Below, one piece after another: positions 3,901-10,196 of a stretch of DNA of 64,000 nt (the first letter of the stretch is position 1; each line of letters opens with the position of its first letter). Where the stretch lies: the NCBI GenBank assembly GCA_002070395.1, contig MWDE01000009.1:1-64000 (forward strand). Direction: 5' to 3'. Source of the DNA: Synergistetes bacterium ADurb.Bin155 (GTDB lineage Bacteria; Synergistota; Synergistia; Synergistales; Thermovirgaceae). Made by a program: the position numbers and the translations under genes. The notes below the pieces were generated by a model. It ran no database searches. It was not told where the DNA came from and saw only the letters and a program-made list of their open reading frames with translations.

Positions 3901-4221
3901 ATGGATCTGATCCGGGAACACCCGATACTCGACTTCAAACACGGGAGGAAAGTCAGGTTCACCTTCGATGGTGAGGAGTTGGTGGGTTTTGAGGGAGAAC
4001 CGATCGCGGCGGCCCTTCACGCGAACGGGATCAGGATCTACAGGTTGACCCCAAAGAGGCGGCAGCCCAGGGGGTTCTTCTGTGCCATCGGGAAATGCTC
4101 ATCCTGCTTCCTGGTCGTTGATGGCGTGCCCAATGTGCGGTCCTGCATCACTCCGCTGAGGACCGGAATGCGGATCGAGACACAGCGTGACAAGGGCGTC
4201 ATCGCTTTGGATGCAGAATAG
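3901..4221 (+). CDS. [2Fe-2S] ferredoxin-like subunit of amino-acid/opine-type dehydrogenase (HcnA-like)
   Basis: This small protein of about 106 residues has a plant-type [2Fe-2S] fold. Cysteines C61, C66, C69 and C82 form the C-x4-C-x2-C-x12-C spacing seen in HcnA and in the N-terminal part of sarcosine oxidase alpha, within RGFFCAIGKCSSC and NVRSC. The upstream PIAAALHANGIRIYR is also typical. It likely relays electrons from the two flavoprotein subunits encoded downstream. Starts at GTG 3895 or TTG 3892 are possible; AAGGGGAGGG at 3881-3890 serves any of them. The amino-acid substrate is not readable from this gene. Confidence 0.8.
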   Translation: MDLIREHPILDFKHGRKVRFTFDGEELVGFEGEPIAAALHANGIRIYRLTPKRRQPRGFFCAIGKCSSCFLVVDGVPNVRSCITPLRTGMRIETQRDKGVIALDAE

Positions 4222-4227
4222 GGGCAG

Positions 4228-5337
4228 GTGATAAGAGTGAGGCAGACCGAGGTACTTGTAATAGGAGGAGGTCCCGCCGGTCTCAGCGCTGCCCTTGAGG
4301 CGGCCTCGCTGGGTTGCCAGGTCATCCTCGTGGATGGCGACCTGGCTCTGGGCGGCCAACTGATCAAGCAAACCCACAAATTCTTCGGGTCAAAGGATGA
4401 GAGGGCCGGGACGAGAGGGTTCAAGATCTCGGAGATACTCCTCAAGGAACTGAAAAACCACAGAGACAGGGTCAAGGTCCATATCAACTGTACTGCGACT
4501 GGTATCTACAAGGAAGATGGGGTTGTCTCCTGTGTTATTGGGGAAGAAGAATACTTCCGCATCAAACCGGAAAGGATCGTCATGGCCACCGGGGCGCAGG
4601 AGCGCCTCATCCCCTTCCCGAACAATCACCTCCCCGGCGTCTACGGTGCTGGGGCGGTCCAGACGCTGATGAATGTCTACGGCGTGATCCCGGGGAAAAG
4701 GGTACTCATGGTGGGCGCCGGCAATATCGGCCTTATTGTCAGTTACCAGCTTATCCAGGCTGGCGTGGAGATCGCGGGCATCGTTGAAGCCATGGATAAG
4801 GTTGGAGGGTATTGGGTCCATGCGGCCAAGGTCAGGAGGCTGGGGGTTCCCATTTTCCTAAGACACACGATAAAGGAGGCCCTGGGAGACCGCGTCGTGA
4901 CAGGAGCCCTGATACAGGAGATAGATGATCGGTTCCAACCTGTTGGCAGGGAGAAAAAGATCGATGCTGACATCATCTGCATGGCCGTCGGGTTGACACC
5001 TACCTGCGAACTCCTTTGGCAGGCCGGGTGCGAAATGATCTATGTACCCCAACTATGCGGGCACGTCGCCCTGAGGGATCAATTCATGAGGACAAGCCTT
5101 CCCCACGTCTGGGTAGCGGGCGATGCGGCCGGTATCGAGGAGGCTACCGCTGCCATGGTGGAGGGGAGGATAGCGGGCCTAGACGCTGCCAGGTCACTGG
5201 GGAAGGGCGACAAGGAGGACCTGACTGAACGACTCGAAGACTTGCAGAAGCGCCTTGGTGACCTTCGGGGCGGGGAGGTCGGCCAGAAGATCTGCCAGGG
5301 CCTTGCCTGTTGCAGCATCCAAGGATGGGGGGCGTAA
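4228..5337 (+). CDS. FAD/NAD(P)-binding subunit of Fe-S amino-acid dehydrogenase (HcnB / PDH-alpha-like)
   Basis: This is a two-dinucleotide-domain flavoprotein of 369 residues. The N-terminal FAD motif is VLVIGGGPAGLSAAL. A second Rossmann motif, VLMVGAGNIGLI, lies near the middle. The C-terminal WVAGDAAGIEEA segment binds the FAD flank. It aligns in architecture with HcnB and with the alpha subunit of dye-linked L-proline dehydrogenases, but it lacks the C-terminal Fe-S (BFD-like) extension, which a separate gene at 5853 provides. The start is GTG at 4228, behind GGGGCAG. It is probably the subunit passing electrons between flavins and Fe-S centres. Confidence 0.78.
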   Translation: MIRVRQTEVLVIGGGPAGLSAALEAASLGCQVILVDGDLALGGQLIKQTHKFFGSKDERAGTRGFKISEILLKELKNHRDRVKVHINCTATGIYKEDGVVSCVIGEEEYFRIKPERIVMATGAQERLIPFPNNHLPGVYGAGAVQTLMNVYGVIPGKRVLMVGAGNIGLIVSYQLIQAGVEIAGIVEAMDKVGGYWVHAAKVRRLGVPIFLRHTIKEALGDRVVTGALIQEIDDRFQPVGREKKIDADIICMAVGLTPTCELLWQAGCEMIYVPQLCGHVALRDQFMRTSLPHVWVAGDAAGIEEATAAMVEGRIAGLDAARSLGKGDKEDLTERLEDLQKRLGDLRGGEVGQKICQGLACCSIQGWGA

Positions 5338-5340
5338 GGA

Positions 5341-5856
5341 ATGGACGAAAAGGAGAAATTGTTCAACAGCGGGGTGCTCGTCGCCCCGCGAAAGGGAGCG
5401 GTGCGACCCCCGGAGGATCTCTGGCGAAAAAAGAAGAACGGGCTCGTCATCATCGAATGTCCCCAGAGAATACCCTGTAACCCCTGCCACACAAGCTGCC
5501 CTACGGGAGCGGTGAAACCTTTCAAAGATATCAACGATCAGCCTGAGATCGATTATGAAAAATGCACAGGCTGCGCGAATTGCGTGGCCGTCTGCCCCGG
5601 CCTGGCCTGCTTTGTCGTGGACCTCACCTGGGGAGATGAAGACCAGGCGTTGATGAAGATCCCCTATGAAATGCTCCCCATCCCCTCAGAGGGAGAGATC
5701 GTAGAGTGCCTTGACAGGGAAGGCAAGGCCATAACCCGCGGTAAGGTCATCAAAGTTCTCGAACCCCTGCGCGACAGGACAAGAGTCGTCCATGTGGAGG
5801 TCCCGAAGTCCCTGGTGATGGAGGTCCGCGCGATCAAGGTGGTGAAACAGTCGTGA
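5341..5856 (+). CDS. 4Fe-4S dicluster-type ferredoxin subunit
   Basis: A 171-residue protein with two cysteine groups: C40, C46, C49, C53 and C75, C78, C81, C85 (CTGCANCVAVCP). This suggests up to two [4Fe-4S] clusters, the second standard and the first less regular (CPQRIPCNPCHTSCPTG). The C-terminal half, after about residue 90, has no cysteine motif and resembles a small beta domain. It overlaps the next gene by 4 nt. In this context it probably moves electrons from the flavoprotein subunits to ferredoxin or another acceptor. Confidence 0.75.
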   Translation: MDEKEKLFNSGVLVAPRKGAVRPPEDLWRKKKNGLVIIECPQRIPCNPCHTSCPTGAVKPFKDINDQPEIDYEKCTGCANCVAVCPGLACFVVDLTWGDEDQALMKIPYEMLPIPSEGEIVECLDREGKAITRGKVIKVLEPLRDRTRVVHVEVPKSLVMEVRAIKVVKQS

Positions 5857-6134
5857 ATGAAAGGGAAGAAGAGATCGTCATCTGCCGTTGCGAGGAGGTC
5901 ACCCTGGGAGAGATCAGGGAATGGATCGACCGGGGCTATCAAACCTTCGACGAGCTGAAAAGGGTCCTCAGGGTGGGCATGGGGCCATGCCAGGGGAGAG
6001 GGTGTCGCGAGATGATCCTGAGGGAACTATCGCTGAAAACGGGAAAACCTGTCTCCGAGATCCACCCCGGTACTTTCAGGCCCCCCTCCAAACCGGTCAA
6101 ACTGTCGCTTCTAGCCGCTGGCGGGGATACGTGA
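5853..6134 (+). CDS. BFD-like [2Fe-2S]-binding subunit
   Basis: This 93-residue protein holds the bacterioferritin-associated-ferredoxin-type motif. ICRCEEVTLGEI gives C11 and C13, and GMGPCQGRGC gives C46 and C51. In HcnB and related opine oxidases this module is the C-terminal domain of the larger flavoprotein; here it is a free-standing gene. The GTG start overlaps the ferredoxin gene by 4 nt, and its TGA shares one base with the ATG of the next gene. It is predicted to be an electron-transfer subunit of the same complex. Confidence 0.78.
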   Translation: MNEREEEIVICRCEEVTLGEIREWIDRGYQTFDELKRVLRVGMGPCQGRGCREMILRELSLKTGKPVSEIHPGTFRPPSKPVKLSLLAAGGDT

Positions 6135-7285
6135 TGACCTTGAAGAGGACTGCCGATGTCGTTGTTATCGGGGCCGGGATCCAGGGCTGTTCCATTGCCT
6201 ACCACCTGGCGAAGTCCGGGATCAAGGATATCGTAGTCCTCGAGAGGAGTACCATTTGTTCCGGATCGACGGGAAGATGCGGCGCCGGTATAAGGGCCCA
6301 GTGGGGTACCGAGATGAATTGCAGGTTCGGGCTTGCCGCGATAGAGAAGTTCGAACGACTACATGAAGAACTGGGCATGGATTGCGGGCTCCACCAGGGA
6401 GGGTACCTGGTGGTGGCTTTTGAGGAAAGTGAATACGAGCACCTCAAGGAAAGCATCCGGCTTCAGAACAGCCTCGGGATCCACACCAGGACCGTCTCCT
6501 ACGATGAAGCCAGGGAGATATGTCCGGGGTTGTCCGCTGAAGATGCCGTGGGGTTCACCTTTCACGGCAGGGATGGTCATGCTGACCCCTTCCTCACGAC
6601 TTTCGCGTACATGGAAGCCGCTAGGAGGCTGGGGGTGGATTACCAGCGTTTCACAGAAGTCCGTGGCATCAGGTATGAAGCGGGGAAGGTAACGGGGGTG
6701 GAGACCAGCCGGGGTCAGATCGATGCGCCCGTCGTGGTCAACGCTGCCGGCGGGTATTCGCAGCACATAGCGAAGATGGCCGGCGTGAAGATCCCCAATT
6801 CCTCTGAAAGACATGAGATCCTTATCACCGAACCGGTGGAACCGGGCGTATGTCCGCCGATGCTGATCAGTTTCTCGAGGAATTTCTACATCCAGCAGAG
6901 GCCCAACGGCTCGATGATCGGTGGGCGCAGCCCCAAGGGCCACCCCCAGGATTACGGCCTCGGTGTCTCCTGGGATTTCCTAGAGTCCATGTCAAGGACC
7001 TTCGTTAAGCTCCTTCCCCGGACCCGGGGTGTCAGGGTTGTAAGACAATGGTCAGGCCTTTACAACATGACCCCCGACTGCCAACCGATCCTATGCGAAG
7101 CCGACGAAGTGAAGGGGTTTTTCCTTTCCTGCGGCTACTCAGGTCATGGTTTCATGTTCGGCCCCATATCGGGGGAGCTTCTCACGCAACAGATCCTGGG
7201 CCAGGAACCAAGGATCCCCATCATGATGCTTCATTATAGGAGGTTCGAAAAGGGAGAACTCCTGGTCGAACCAGCAATCGTGTAA
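6134..7285 (+). CDS. FAD-dependent amine/amino-acid dehydrogenase catalytic subunit (HcnC / sarcosine oxidase beta-like)
   Basis: A 383-residue DAO-family flavoprotein. The FAD motif DVVVIGAGIQGCSIAYHLA sits at residues 8-26, and the family's C-terminal FLSCGYSGHGFMFGP motif is present. This type oxidises an amino or imino acid (proline, sarcosine, glycine, hydroxyproline or opine) at the flavin. I start it at ATG 6134, one base inside the previous stop; the open frame extends further upstream but overlaps the BFD gene. It is the last gene of a five-gene operon. Substrate choice cannot be decided from sequence. The 2-oxoacid oxidoreductase downstream suggests amino-acid catabolism. Confidence 0.8.
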   Translation: MTLKRTADVVVIGAGIQGCSIAYHLAKSGIKDIVVLERSTICSGSTGRCGAGIRAQWGTEMNCRFGLAAIEKFERLHEELGMDCGLHQGGYLVVAFEESEYEHLKESIRLQNSLGIHTRTVSYDEAREICPGLSAEDAVGFTFHGRDGHADPFLTTFAYMEAARRLGVDYQRFTEVRGIRYEAGKVTGVETSRGQIDAPVVVNAAGGYSQHIAKMAGVKIPNSSERHEILITEPVEPGVCPPMLISFSRNFYIQQRPNGSMIGGRSPKGHPQDYGLGVSWDFLESMSRTFVKLLPRTRGVRVVRQWSGLYNMTPDCQPILCEADEVKGFFLSCGYSGHGFMFGPISGELLTQQILGQEPRIPIMMLHYRRFEKGELLVEPAIV

Positions 7286-7373: not shown

Positions 7374-7491
7374 TTGTAATGCAATATTCAATATATAGAT
7401 ACAAATATGCCTTGTGCCAGGCCTCACAGGGTGGCATAATGGTGTCGGGCAAGAGATCTTGCCCTGAACGTCTCGGAGGAAGGTGAATTGT

Positions 7492-7707
7492 TTGCCAAAA
7501 AAATTTATGGTTACCGTGGATCCCCGCTGGTGCAAGGGTTGTGGTTTATGCCTTGCCGTGTGCCCTACCAAGGTATTCGATTTTGACGAAGGGCTGAAGT
7601 CGGTACCAACGAGGATGGAGGACTGTATCGGTTGCAAGCAATGTGAGAACATCTGCCCCGATCTGGCGATCACGGTAGAGGGGAGTGCGGACAATGCCAA
7701 GAGTTGA
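7492..7707 (+). CDS. korD: 2-oxoacid:ferredoxin oxidoreductase, delta (ferredoxin) subunit
   Basis: A small two-cluster ferredoxin with CKGCGLCLAVCP and CIGCKQCENICPD. These are two C-x2-C-x2-C-x3-C-P motifs, so two [4Fe-4S] clusters. It is the electron-accepting subunit of the four-subunit oxidoreductase. I prefer TTG 7492 because AGGTGA lies 5 nt upstream; GTG 7483 would sit too close to GGAGG. It overlaps the alpha-subunit start by 14 nt. Specificity (2-oxoglutarate versus branched-chain or other keto acids) is not fixed by this subunit. Confidence 0.88.
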   Translation: MPKKFMVTVDPRWCKGCGLCLAVCPTKVFDFDEGLKSVPTRMEDCIGCKQCENICPDLAITVEGSADNAKS

Positions 7708-8830
7708 ATTCTGGCAAGGGAATGCTTCGATCGCCCAAGGGGCCCTTGCCGCAGGCTGTCGATTTTTTGGAGGTTACCCCATAACACCCTCGTCGGAGAT
7801 AGCGGAAGTCATGGCGGCTGAACTGCCTGCCCATAATGGCCGGTTCATACAAATGGAGGACGAAATAGCGGGGATCGCAGCAGCGATCGGGGGGTCGGTG
7901 GCAGGTTTCAAGGCGATGACCGCCACTTCCGGCCCCGGCTTCTCGCTCAAACAGGAAAACCTGGGACTCGCCTACATGGCTGAGATCCCCCTCGTAGTAG
8001 TGGATGTCATGCGCGGGGGACCCTCCACCGGACTTCCAACCTCCATTGCCCAACAGGACGTGATGCAGGCCCGATGGGGTACTCACGGGGACCATGCCAC
8101 CATCGCCTATGCACCTTCGTCCGTGCAGGAATGTTTCGAGGTGGCGATAAAGGCTTTCAATATGGCCGAACGATTCAGGCAGCCCGTTCTGATCATGAGC
8201 GATGAAGTCCTCGGTCATATGCGGGAAAAGGTCGTCGTCCCCGACAGGGAGACTTACACCATAGTGAACAGGAAAAAGCCTTCCTGTGCCCCGGACGTTT
8301 TCATGCCCTACAAACCCGATCCCGAGGACAATCTCCCCCCCATGGCATCCTTCGGCGACGGGTACCGTTGGCACATTACAGGTCTTACCCACAACGAGTG
8401 GGGGTTCCCGACGAACTGCCCCGAAGAGATAGCAAAAAAGACGGCCCGTTTGATGGACAAGGTCAATGCCTATCGTGATGATATCGTCGAATTTGAGACC
8501 GAGAGTGTGGAAGATGCCCGGATCATCGTCGTTGCTTTCGGCAGCGTAGCCCGTACCGCTTTAAGCGCTGTCAGGATGGCCAGAAGCAAGGGGCTCAAGG
8601 TGGGTTATTTCCGACCGATAGTGCTCTGGCCATTCCCCGACAGGGAACTCGAAGCCCTGGCTGAAAAGGCGGGAAAGTTGATCGTCCCGGAGTTGAATTA
8701 CGGGCAGATGGTCAATGAAGTGGAAAGATCAGTCCACGGCAAAGCCGGGATCACCCAGATGAGCCTGGTCAACGGCGAGCTTTTCCAGCCCTCCGAGATC
8801 CTGGAGAAAATCGAGGAGGTGGCCCGATAA
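7694..8830 (+). CDS. korA: 2-oxoglutarate(2-oxoacid):ferredoxin oxidoreductase, alpha subunit
   Basis: The alpha subunit carries the pyruvate-ferredoxin oxidoreductase N-terminal fold. GNASIAQGALAAGCRFFGGYP, the PITPSSEIAE motif, QMEDEIAG and TATSGPGFSLK are all characteristic of KorA-type enzymes. With the beta subunit it oxidatively decarboxylates a 2-oxoacid to acyl-CoA and reduces ferredoxin. The start is ATG 7694, with GAGGGG about 9 nt upstream. The stop overlaps the korB ATG by one base. Family resemblance favours 2-oxoglutarate, but related substrates remain possible. Confidence 0.88.
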   Translation: MPRVEFWQGNASIAQGALAAGCRFFGGYPITPSSEIAEVMAAELPAHNGRFIQMEDEIAGIAAAIGGSVAGFKAMTATSGPGFSLKQENLGLAYMAEIPLVVVDVMRGGPSTGLPTSIAQQDVMQARWGTHGDHATIAYAPSSVQECFEVAIKAFNMAERFRQPVLIMSDEVLGHMREKVVVPDRETYTIVNRKKPSCAPDVFMPYKPDPEDNLPPMASFGDGYRWHITGLTHNEWGFPTNCPEEIAKKTARLMDKVNAYRDDIVEFETESVEDARIIVVAFGSVARTALSAVRMARSKGLKVGYFRPIVLWPFPDRELEALAEKAGKLIVPELNYGQMVNEVERSVHGKAGITQMSLVNGELFQPSEILEKIEEVAR

Positions 8831-9654
8831 TGCCGCGCCCTGAAGTTATGTCATGGTTGAGAAAGAGATTTTTTCCTCACCTGTGGTGCCCCGGATGCGG
8901 CCATGGGATCATAATGCACGCGATCCTGAGGGCCCTTATCGATTCAGGGAAAACAAAGGAACAGACGGTGATCGCCTCCGGGATAGGTTGTTCCAGCAGG
9001 ATGCCTGGTTATATAGATGCTTGCACTATCCATACCACTCACGGCAGGTCCCTGGCTTTTGCCACCGGCATCAAGTTGGCGAACCCTGAACTCACGATAG
9101 TCGATGTTATGGGGGACGGCGATTGTACGGCTATCGGCGGCAATCATTTCATCCATGCCTGCCGAAGGAACATCGGCATCACCGCTGTGGTGATGAACAA
9201 CAATATATACGGCATGACCGGAGGACAGGCTTCGCCTACTACGCCCCTTGGGGCCAAGGCGACTACAGCTCCTTATGGAGCCATCGACCCACCTTTTGAC
9301 GTATGCAAACTAGCCCAGGGCGCCGGAGCTACCTATGTGGCCCGGACCACTGTGGCGCAGCCCGTCCTTTGCGAACAGTATATTAAGAACGGGATAGCCA
9401 ACAGGGGTTTTTCCGTTATTGAGATCCTAACCAACTGCCACACCCAGTTTGGCAGGAGAAACAACCTAAGGACTCCTGTGGACAACCTGAACTTCTTCAA
9501 GAAAAATTCCGTCCCTTTGGCTAAAGCTCAAGGCATGACCCCCGCCGACCTTGAAGGCAAGATTGTCACTGGCGAATTCGTGAAGAGAGAAGCACCGGAA
9601 TATACCGATCTCTACCGTAGCCTGGTCGAGAGGATTGGGGGCGACGAACGATGA
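8830..9654 (+). CDS. korB: 2-oxoglutarate(2-oxoacid):ferredoxin oxidoreductase, beta (TPP-binding) subunit
   Basis: This subunit binds thiamine diphosphate and Mg2+. LWCPGCGHG is the conserved N-terminal motif, IGCSSR and HTTHGRSLAFATG follow, and VMGDGDCTAIGGNHFIHACRRN is the GDG...N TPP signature. MNNNIYGMTGGQASPTTP is also standard. The 274-residue length fits KorB. The one-base overlap with korA and the 4-nt overlap with the gamma subunit support equal expression of the complex. Confidence 0.9.
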   Translation: MPRPEVMSWLRKRFFPHLWCPGCGHGIIMHAILRALIDSGKTKEQTVIASGIGCSSRMPGYIDACTIHTTHGRSLAFATGIKLANPELTIVDVMGDGDCTAIGGNHFIHACRRNIGITAVVMNNNIYGMTGGQASPTTPLGAKATTAPYGAIDPPFDVCKLAQGAGATYVARTTVAQPVLCEQYIKNGIANRGFSVIEILTNCHTQFGRRNNLRTPVDNLNFFKKNSVPLAKAQGMTPADLEGKIVTGEFVKREAPEYTDLYRSLVERIGGDER

Positions 9655-10196
9655 GGGACCGTTACGAGATAAGGTTCGCAGGTTCCGGCGGCCAGGGGGT
9701 CATACTGGCTGCCGTGGTGGTGGGAGAAGCCGCGGCTATCTTCGAAGGTCTGAACTCGGTCCAGACTCAGTCCTACGGCCCGGAAGCAAGGGGAGGCAAA
9801 TCCAAATCGGAGGTCGTCATTTCAAGAGGCAGTATCGATTACCCGAAGGCTACCACCCCTGACCTACAGATCATACTCAACCAGGCTTCCTGCGACGAAT
9901 TCATCGCCCAGACAGGTAAGGGTGGGATAGTGGTCGTCGATGATACCTATGTGTCATCCGTCCCGGAGACGGAAGCCCAGGTCTTCAGTTTACCCATCGT
10001 CAAAACTGCAAGAGAAAAGGTCGGGAGGGAACTGGTCACGAACATGGTGGCCCTCGGCGTTACGGCCAAAATCCTGGAGAAGAAGGGGCTCATGAAAGCC
10101 GAATCCTTAAAGCAAGCTGTATTGGCAAGAGTTCCAAAAGGGACTGAAGAGATCAACGAAAAAGCCTTTATAGAGGGTTACAAACTGATGGAATAG
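9651..10196 (+). CDS. korC: 2-oxoacid:ferredoxin oxidoreductase, gamma subunit
   Basis: The 181-residue gamma subunit begins YEIRFAGSGGQGVILA and includes QTQSYGPEARGGKSKSEVVIS, both hallmarks of the POR/KOR gamma family. The later region has TAREKVGRELVTNMVALG. It completes the delta-alpha-beta-gamma set and likely helps bind coenzyme A and hold the assembly together. A strong terminator follows 40 nt later, so it closes the operon. Confidence 0.9.
   Translation: MRDRYEIRFAGSGGQGVILAAVVVGEAAAIFEGLNSVQTQSYGPEARGGKSKSEVVISRGSIDYPKATTPDLQIILNQASCDEFIAQTGKGGIVVVDDTYVSSVPETEAQVFSLPIVKTAREKVGRELVTNMVALGVTAKILEKKGLMKAESLKQAVLARVPKGTEEINEKAFIEGYKLME

Follow-up and report, generated by a model that had tools for sequence, protein, structure and literature searches.

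The window considered here, a stretch of 64,000 nucleotides from Synergistetes bacterium ADurb.Bin155, carries five adjacent forward-strand open reading frames, A1, A2, gamma, delta and beta, with the genes of a 2-oxoacid:ferredoxin oxidoreductase downstream (Table 1). The protein types that the earlier note had given to these five frames agree with both the ORF coordinates and the Pfam matches. A1 and A2 are separated by 6 nt and A2 and gamma by 3 nt, while gamma/delta and delta/beta overlap by 4 and 1 nt, respectively; the start of A1 was set at its ATG because orthologues begin there. A scan for promoters and terminators gave results no better than chance.

Table 1. Coding features of the five-gene locus and its downstream neighbour.
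Feature	Position	Strand	Remarks
A1, [2Fe-2S] protein	3901..4221	+	start = ATG; ORF open from TTG 3892
A2, FAD/NAD(P) protein	4228..5337	+	
gamma, dicluster 4Fe-4S protein	5341..5856	+	
delta, BFD-type [2Fe-2S] protein	5853..6134	+	
beta (type I), catalytic FAD amine dehydrogenase, DAO/SoxB family	6134..7285	+	
KorDABC, 2-oxoacid (2-oxoglutarate-type):ferredoxin oxidoreductase	7483..10196	+	PRK08659, PRK09628, PRK08537, Fer4

A1 matches Fer2_4 (E 8e-31, Pfam), its ligand cysteines C64, C69, C72 and C85 are invariant in aligned relatives, and it aligns with residues 8-88 of 1y56_A, a stretch in which 1y56_A is without these cysteines. Judged from these matches, A1 is HcnA-like and corresponds to the N-terminal part of the archaeal PDH alpha subunit. 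A2 (Pyr_redox_2, E 6e-37, Pfam) aligns with 1y56_A 109-378 and covers only positions 168-489 of the 996 in the soxA profile, and its second Rossmann motif, GAGNIG with the following E, is kept in at least 95% of 52 homologues; it is assigned to the SoxA/HcnB/PDH-alpha type, without the aminomethyltransferase or BFD part. The BFD module does form a gene of its own, as had been claimed: delta matches Fer2_BFD (E 2e-12) and SO_alpha_A3 (E 3e-11, both Pfam), has cysteines C11, C13, C46 and C51 invariant in aligned relatives, and aligns with 1y56_A 410-491, the C-terminal part of PDH1 alpha. The presence of a dicluster ferredoxin-type gene is likewise borne out by the Fer4 matches of gamma (Fer4_7, E 1e-8, Pfam) and its eight cysteines (C40/46/49/53/75/78/81/85), all invariant in aligned relatives, the first cluster motif being irregular (C-x5-C-x2-C-x3-CP). 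The AlphaFold2 model of gamma (pLDDT 86.9) predicts an additional C-terminal beta domain with no known close fold, and a fold search with this model against the PDB gave no match at E<=0.001. Taken together, the invariant ligand cysteines lead us to predict two [2Fe-2S] and two [4Fe-4S] sites.

The catalytic subunit, beta, matches DAO (E 3e-75, Pfam). The earlier note had compared the system with HcnABC, but the best PDB match of beta is 1y56_B of Pyrococcus horikoshii (PH1364; E 9e-77, 36.6% identity), the beta subunit of an L-proline dehydrogenase, and among known systems the archaeal alpha-beta-gamma-delta enzyme stands closer than HcnABC. Phylogenetically, it falls in a clade that we call type I, and betas of this kind are 74-85% identical within the window's family.

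Across Synergistota, the gene order A1-A2-gamma-delta-beta is kept, and natural gene fusions in relatives support the proposal that the five products form a single complex. These join A2 to gamma (L140, L147), A1 to A2 and gamma (L146), and, in a protein of 694 aa with two betas after it, all of A1, A2, gamma and delta (L070); one genome (G164) has delta and beta only. Homologues of gamma scoring at least about 67 bits are present in 85 of 188 genomes, and weaker matches in many genomes were set aside as unrelated ferredoxin domains, such as those of HypD activases. The matches listed from a scan of genome contigs are Synergistota loci together with a few from Thermotogota and Bacillota. Plasmid searches yielded nothing closely related to gamma, and the betas that they returned were distant.

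In their genomic distribution, A1, A2, gamma and delta behave as a portable, reusable electron-carrying cassette that takes different substrate-oxidising betas. Two old beta clades, types I and II, use it: a type II beta adjoins the cassette in 34 of 58 cases, and in one genome (G003) both types adjoin the same cassette, one on each side. Six genomes carry cassettes at two distant loci that are 97-100% identical in DNA, despite unrelated flanks and betas that are only ~40% identical; in one of the six, the second copy has no adjoining beta. Two species, G138 and S2R_St_13, have the same two loci, with flanking genes that match between them, and here A1-A2-gamma shows 99-100% identity inside each genome, compared with 82-87% from one species to the other. 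Because matching loci are thus homogenised within genomes and yet divergent between species, these sequences show concerted evolution of the twin cassettes rather than recent duplication.

The window's own family presents a different arrangement, with one A2 per genome (in G185, as two fragments of one gene) and two betas in most genomes. One cassette was found in every Thermovirgaceae-type genome examined, a count that rests mainly on the near-complete G182 and G183 (99%) and on G176 from another family, the window's genome being 88% complete. An extra BFD gene in G182 and G183 was considered as a sign of a second cassette and rejected; in G182 its neighbours are arsR-, thioredoxin- and permease-like genes. 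The window's genome has in common with seven relatives a second, cassette-less beta that adjoins a proline-racemase-family gene, usually with a hydroxyproline dehydratase nearby. More widely, 14 genomes hold an orphan type II beta with the cassette elsewhere, a tally from which we left out the second copy in G151 and dropped G130, G166 and G023, where a contig end cuts the expected cassette place. Because there is one cassette copy per genome, and in view of the beta phylogeny, the window's cassette probably serves the second beta in trans as well, although the orphan type II beta may work by itself or with a different partner.

An amino acid is a likely substrate, as had been suggested, and judging from the family the best candidate is L-proline or a compound closely related to it. 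The proline-type neighbours of betas belong to the ProR, HypD and OCD/Pyr2C-reductase families, and type I betas have 8 of 18 type-diagnostic residues in common with the L-proline dehydrogenase beta, compared with 2 of 18 for type II. Nevertheless, at 36.6% identity to the characterised enzyme, beta is too distant for this comparison to fix the substrate. Sarcosine, D-hydroxyproline, opines and glycine are substrates in related families. Downstream, KorDABC is a conserved neighbour outside the complex: in all 28 loci holding KorA, this gene lies ~1.5-1.8 kb from the type I beta on the same strand (19 distinct genomes once double fetches are removed).

Taking these observations together, we consider it probable that the locus encodes a Synergistota form, in five genes, of the dye-linked alpha-beta-gamma-delta L-proline dehydrogenase, with a reusable cassette that probably serves betas both in cis and in trans. 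Beta would use its own FAD to oxidise the amino acid, for which L-proline or a closely related compound is the likeliest choice. If the path resembles that in the solved structures of PDH1 and sarcosine oxidase, the electrons would then cross an interface FMN to the [2Fe-2S] cluster of delta. From there, in an order likewise suggested by analogy, they would proceed to the FAD of A2, the [2Fe-2S] cluster of A1 and the 4Fe-4S pair of gamma. In some relatives the cassette is a single fused protein, and in others its copies at different loci are homogenised; the sole cassette of the window's genome would serve the type I beta in cis and the orphan beta in trans.

Alternatively, the locus could encode one dedicated five-gene enzyme, with the orphan beta working independently through an acceptor of its own and the identical cassettes being recent duplications. 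Recent copying within each genome could likewise account for cassette identity taken alone, and the case for sharing is built on genomic pattern; we still judge this alternative unlikely in light of the homogenised, matching loci of G138 and S2R_St_13, the frequent adjacency of type II betas to the cassette, the cassette flanked by both beta types, and the fused cassette followed by two betas. Slightly better placed, although still rather unlikely, is direct oxidation by beta of a primary (e.g., D-) amino acid, rather than proline, with the resulting 2-oxoacid entering the neighbouring KorDABC. The conserved adjacency of this 2-oxoglutarate-type enzyme is in line with such a route, as is the finding that ten family genomes gave no P5C dehydrogenase match passing the curated cut-off; however, the closest beta of known function comes from an L-proline dehydrogenase, most relatives use secondary amines, and the adjacency could also reflect conversion of proline via glutamate to 2-oxoglutarate.

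Flavin-based bifurcation or confurcation, in which the multiple centres would reduce ferredoxin from an amino acid, is improbable. At standard state, the oxidation of proline cannot by itself drive the reduction of ferredoxin or NAD+, and the retained NAD-type motif and the dicluster subunit would offer two possible electron exits, both of which count in its favour. Yet the resemblance to bifurcating enzymes was of the general Pyr_redox_2 kind, a weak match to NfnI alpha included, and none of the sequence marks of known bifurcating flavoproteins was found. No dedicated module of the Etf, Nfn or HydABC type is found in the operon, and the archaeal relatives are measured in dye-linked dehydrogenase assays (PMC8704557). 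We give a similarly low chance to a broader proposal, in which the cassette would be an all-round redox hub for amine oxidation: one copy would work with several betas from any place in the genome, concerted evolution would hold duplicate hubs identical and thereby compatible with every beta, and low-energy oxidation of amino acids would be coupled through bifurcation to the reduction of ferredoxin. Least credible by far is a glycine-oxidising, cyanide-forming enzyme: the Fer2_4, Pyr_redox_2/BFD and DAO parts are held in common with HcnABC, but HCN synthase is a three-subunit enzyme, whereas here the BFD gene is separate, a dicluster subunit is present, and the nearest PDB sequence is a proline dehydrogenase beta.

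To our knowledge, no physiological electron acceptor has yet been established for enzymes of this group, whose archaeal members are assayed with dyes. Synergistota provide a clean test, with near-complete genomes holding one cassette and two betas, fusions expressible as single proteins, and identical cassette pairs with different betas. If trans sharing is true, many lone amine dehydrogenases have partners that gene neighbourhood alone will not reveal; the betas would then indicate the range of substrates, and the cassette the routing of electrons. The twin loci also show, in bacteria, a redox module of several genes that evolves in concert and has its edges at or near gene boundaries. The portable cassette, its homogenised copies and its probable sharing with the orphan beta go beyond the earlier note.

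The subunit set itself is already known from proline dehydrogenases of heat-loving archaea, and what we describe is a split version in a bacterium. The dye-linked L-proline dehydrogenase of Thermococcus has separate gamma and delta subunits, encoded in the order alpha-gamma-delta-beta (PMC4364671), and the extra Fe-S subunits are therefore not the new addition that they had been taken for. Gene order and subunit types in T. profundus (pdhA-pdhF-pdhX-pdhB) are as in the window, the archaeal gamma and delta being compared by description; the alpha-beta-gamma-delta genes of T. litoralis (OCC_00347/00342/00337/00332) lie in a locus with proline racemase and Pyr2C reductase, as type I and type II betas of Synergistota lie with ProR- and OCD-family genes. 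The archaeal alpha is one polypeptide, whereas that of the window is split into A1 and A2, and we therefore regard the window system as a variant rather than a plain member; it differs further in its bacterial host and in the second, cassette-less beta of the genome. The nearest solved relative of beta belongs to the alpha4-beta4 PDH1 of Pyrococcus horikoshii (PH1363/PH1364, PDB 1y56), whose alpha, 1y56_A, unites A1-like, A2-like and delta-like regions in a single chain; its A1-like region is without the cysteines, and the solved pair is without gamma.

OpnDH/D-hydroxyproline dehydrogenase (OdhABC) combines common electron-carrying subunits with an exchangeable beta, as in OdhB1-C-A-B2 of B. 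japonicum (PMC4575208), and the genomic pattern described here fits such an exchange. It differs in having three subunits (alpha-beta-gamma) with neither a separate BFD gene nor a dicluster protein, and in exchanging betas within one cluster, whereas in the window type exchange would extend to betas in trans and involve homogenised cassette copies. HcnABC has HcnA-, HcnB- and HcnC-like parts in common with the window system, but has three genes, uses glycine, lacks gamma and carries its BFD inside HcnB. Finally, the heterotetrameric sarcosine oxidase SoxBDAG is alike in that beta is DAO/SoxB-like, A2 corresponds to the FAD/NAD part of SoxA and delta to SO_alpha_A3, while the window system differs from it in having separate Fe-S subunits and in being without the aminomethyltransferase part, SoxD and SoxG.

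The five open reading frames that the earlier note placed at 3901-7285 were found there, all on the forward strand, and domain searches gave matches in A1 (Fer2_4), A2 (Pyr_redox_2), gamma (Fer4 dicluster), delta (Fer2_BFD/SO_alpha_A3) and the catalytic beta (DAO). The first three genes are separated by 6 and 3 nt, and the last two junctions overlap by 4 and 1 nt. Among aligned relatives, four cysteines in A1, eight in gamma and four in delta are invariant putative cluster ligands, from which two [2Fe-2S] and two [4Fe-4S] sites are predicted, in addition to at least two flavins. The second gamma motif is of the usual form (C75-x2-C78-x2-C81-x3-C85-P); the first is irregular, with C40, a plausible replacement for the absent third cysteine, preceding a C46-x2-C49-x3-C53-P run. 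We found no close solved relative of gamma, and a fold search gave no confident match for its C-terminal beta domain, despite a good model.

The further proposal that the products form a single complex receives good, though indirect, support from three kinds of natural fusion, all with the genes joined in the sequence seen in the operon: A2-gamma (one case in Pseudothermotoga, one in another Thermotogota genome), A1-A2-gamma and A1-A2-gamma-delta. By analogy with the L-proline dehydrogenase PDH1 and sarcosine oxidase, electrons would pass from the beta FAD through FMN, delta, A2 and A1 to gamma. The second Rossmann motif of A2 is conserved, and the candidate acceptors are NAD+ via A2 or a ferredoxin via gamma; bifurcation, though energetically conceivable, is a speculative reading.

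Of 188 Synergistota genomes, 85 encode gamma, with one to five copies each. The betas form two main clades: the A1-A2-gamma-delta cassette normally lies upstream of type I, which includes the window beta, and either downstream (several families) or upstream (others) of type II, and in G003 both types flank one cassette. Six genomes (G009, G017, G021, G124, G138 and S2R_St_13) carry two distant cassettes that are 97-100% identical in DNA over ~2-2.2 kb, beginning at or close to the start of A1 and ending in or near delta. Outside this stretch the sequence is unrelated, and the betas are ~40% identical where both copies carry one, the second copy in G009 having none. Several of these genomes are single contigs, and the near-identity is thus not an assembly effect. 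In G138 and S2R_St_13 the two loci occupy matching positions with flanking genes in common, and each beta is 86-89% identical between the species; because A1-A2-gamma are nonetheless 99-100% identical within each genome but 82-87% between them, this pattern is the signature of concerted evolution, for which gene conversion is the simplest explanation. Delta is not homogenised in this pair, which weakly fits its adapting to its own beta. Synergistota-like cassettes or betas also occur on contigs labelled Methanomethylovorans, Desulfobulbus and proteobacterium (L128, L122 and L107), probably because these MAG contigs were misbinned.

A2, gamma and BFD genes are each present once in the window's genome, which carries a second beta on another contig, 41-42% identical to the first, with no cassette genes within the 16 kb examined around it. 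This orphan is divergent from a proline-racemase-family gene bearing the Cys-Cys pair of racemases/epimerases, and seven other genomes of the family share this arrangement. The cluster includes trans-4-hydroxy-L-proline dehydratase (HypD, NF043068; truncated at a contig end in G183) and an activase in five of these (G181, G182, G183, G186 and G187), and an OCD-family gene in several. At this locus the window's genome lacks the HypD, activase and GntR genes that lie between the neighbouring genes in G181 (L175) and G186 (L176), as if by deletion; its contig C7 (L181) carries a tandem pair of glycyl-radical enzymes, which score below the HypD cut-off, along with two activases. In G182 (99% complete, two contigs), orphan beta and cassette lie 0.64 Mb apart. 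Phylum-wide, type II beta adjoins the cassette in 34 of 58 cases, and 14 genomes, once contig-end and unexamined cases are removed, have a cassette-less type II beta with the cassette elsewhere; G164 has its cassette apart from a delta-beta pair that lacks A1-A2-gamma. Most simply, the orphan betas would be served in trans by the cassette.

Locations of the features discussed
Feature	Location	Remark
KorDABC	window 7483-10196	directly 3' of type I beta
Orphan type II beta and divergent proline-racemase-family gene	L154:6666-9016	window's genome, contig C10
Type II beta with only delta (BFD) upstream	L188:6564-7984	G164
Cassette without adjacent beta	L033:4115-6375	G009, second copy
Cassette without adjacent beta	L060:5008-7313	G006
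A2-gamma fusion	L140:5810-7507	Thermotogota
A2-gamma fusion	L147:5822-7501	Thermotogota
A1-A2-gamma fusion	L146:2-1915	Thermotogota
A1-A2-gamma-delta fusion	L070:3538-8021	one 694-aa protein, then two different betas and an OCD-family gene

From their family, the betas would be expected to act on secondary amines, and the ProR, HypD and OCD/Pyr2C-reductase neighbours point to proline and hydroxyproline metabolism. At the 18 positions separating the two types, type I matches the L-proline dehydrogenase beta at eight and type II at two, and we therefore favour L-proline for type I and D-proline or D-hydroxyproline for type II. KorDABC follows type I beta on the same strand in 19 distinct genomes, which fits a route from proline through glutamate to 2-oxoglutarate, and also fits a primary amino acid being converted to the corresponding 2-oxoacid; a search for P5C dehydrogenase in ten genomes of the family found none above the cut-off. 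The KorDABC neighbourhood is kept across several Synergistota families, often with TsaE/TsaB-like genes upstream. At seven loci (L043, L048, L050, L064, L092, L115 and L117), genes resembling aldehyde ferredoxin oxidoreductase, commonly accompanied by a small Fe-S protein, lie near the operon and may indicate an aldehyde product.

New to us is the genomic evidence for four electron-carrying genes as a shared, homogenised cassette with exchangeable, partly stand-alone catalytic subunits; beta exchange on common subunits is already known for opine dehydrogenases (PMC4575208). The earlier note compared the operon with HcnABC, but an archaeal L-proline dehydrogenase is closer, given the shared gene order and that the best solved relative of the window beta is the beta subunit of P. 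horikoshii PDH1 (1y56_B; E 9e-77, 36.6% identity). In the PDH1 alpha chain (1y56_A), residues 8-88 align to A1, without its cysteines, 109-378 to A2 and 410-491 to delta. A second archaeal type has separate gamma and delta genes in the order alpha-gamma-delta-beta, as in T. profundus pdhA-F-X-B and T. litoralis OCC_00347-00332 (PMC4364671; PMC8704557). The five window genes are best read as this system with alpha, undivided in the archaea, divided between two genes: a split bacterial form of an already known archaeal complex, to which the three-gene HcnABC is a more distant cousin.
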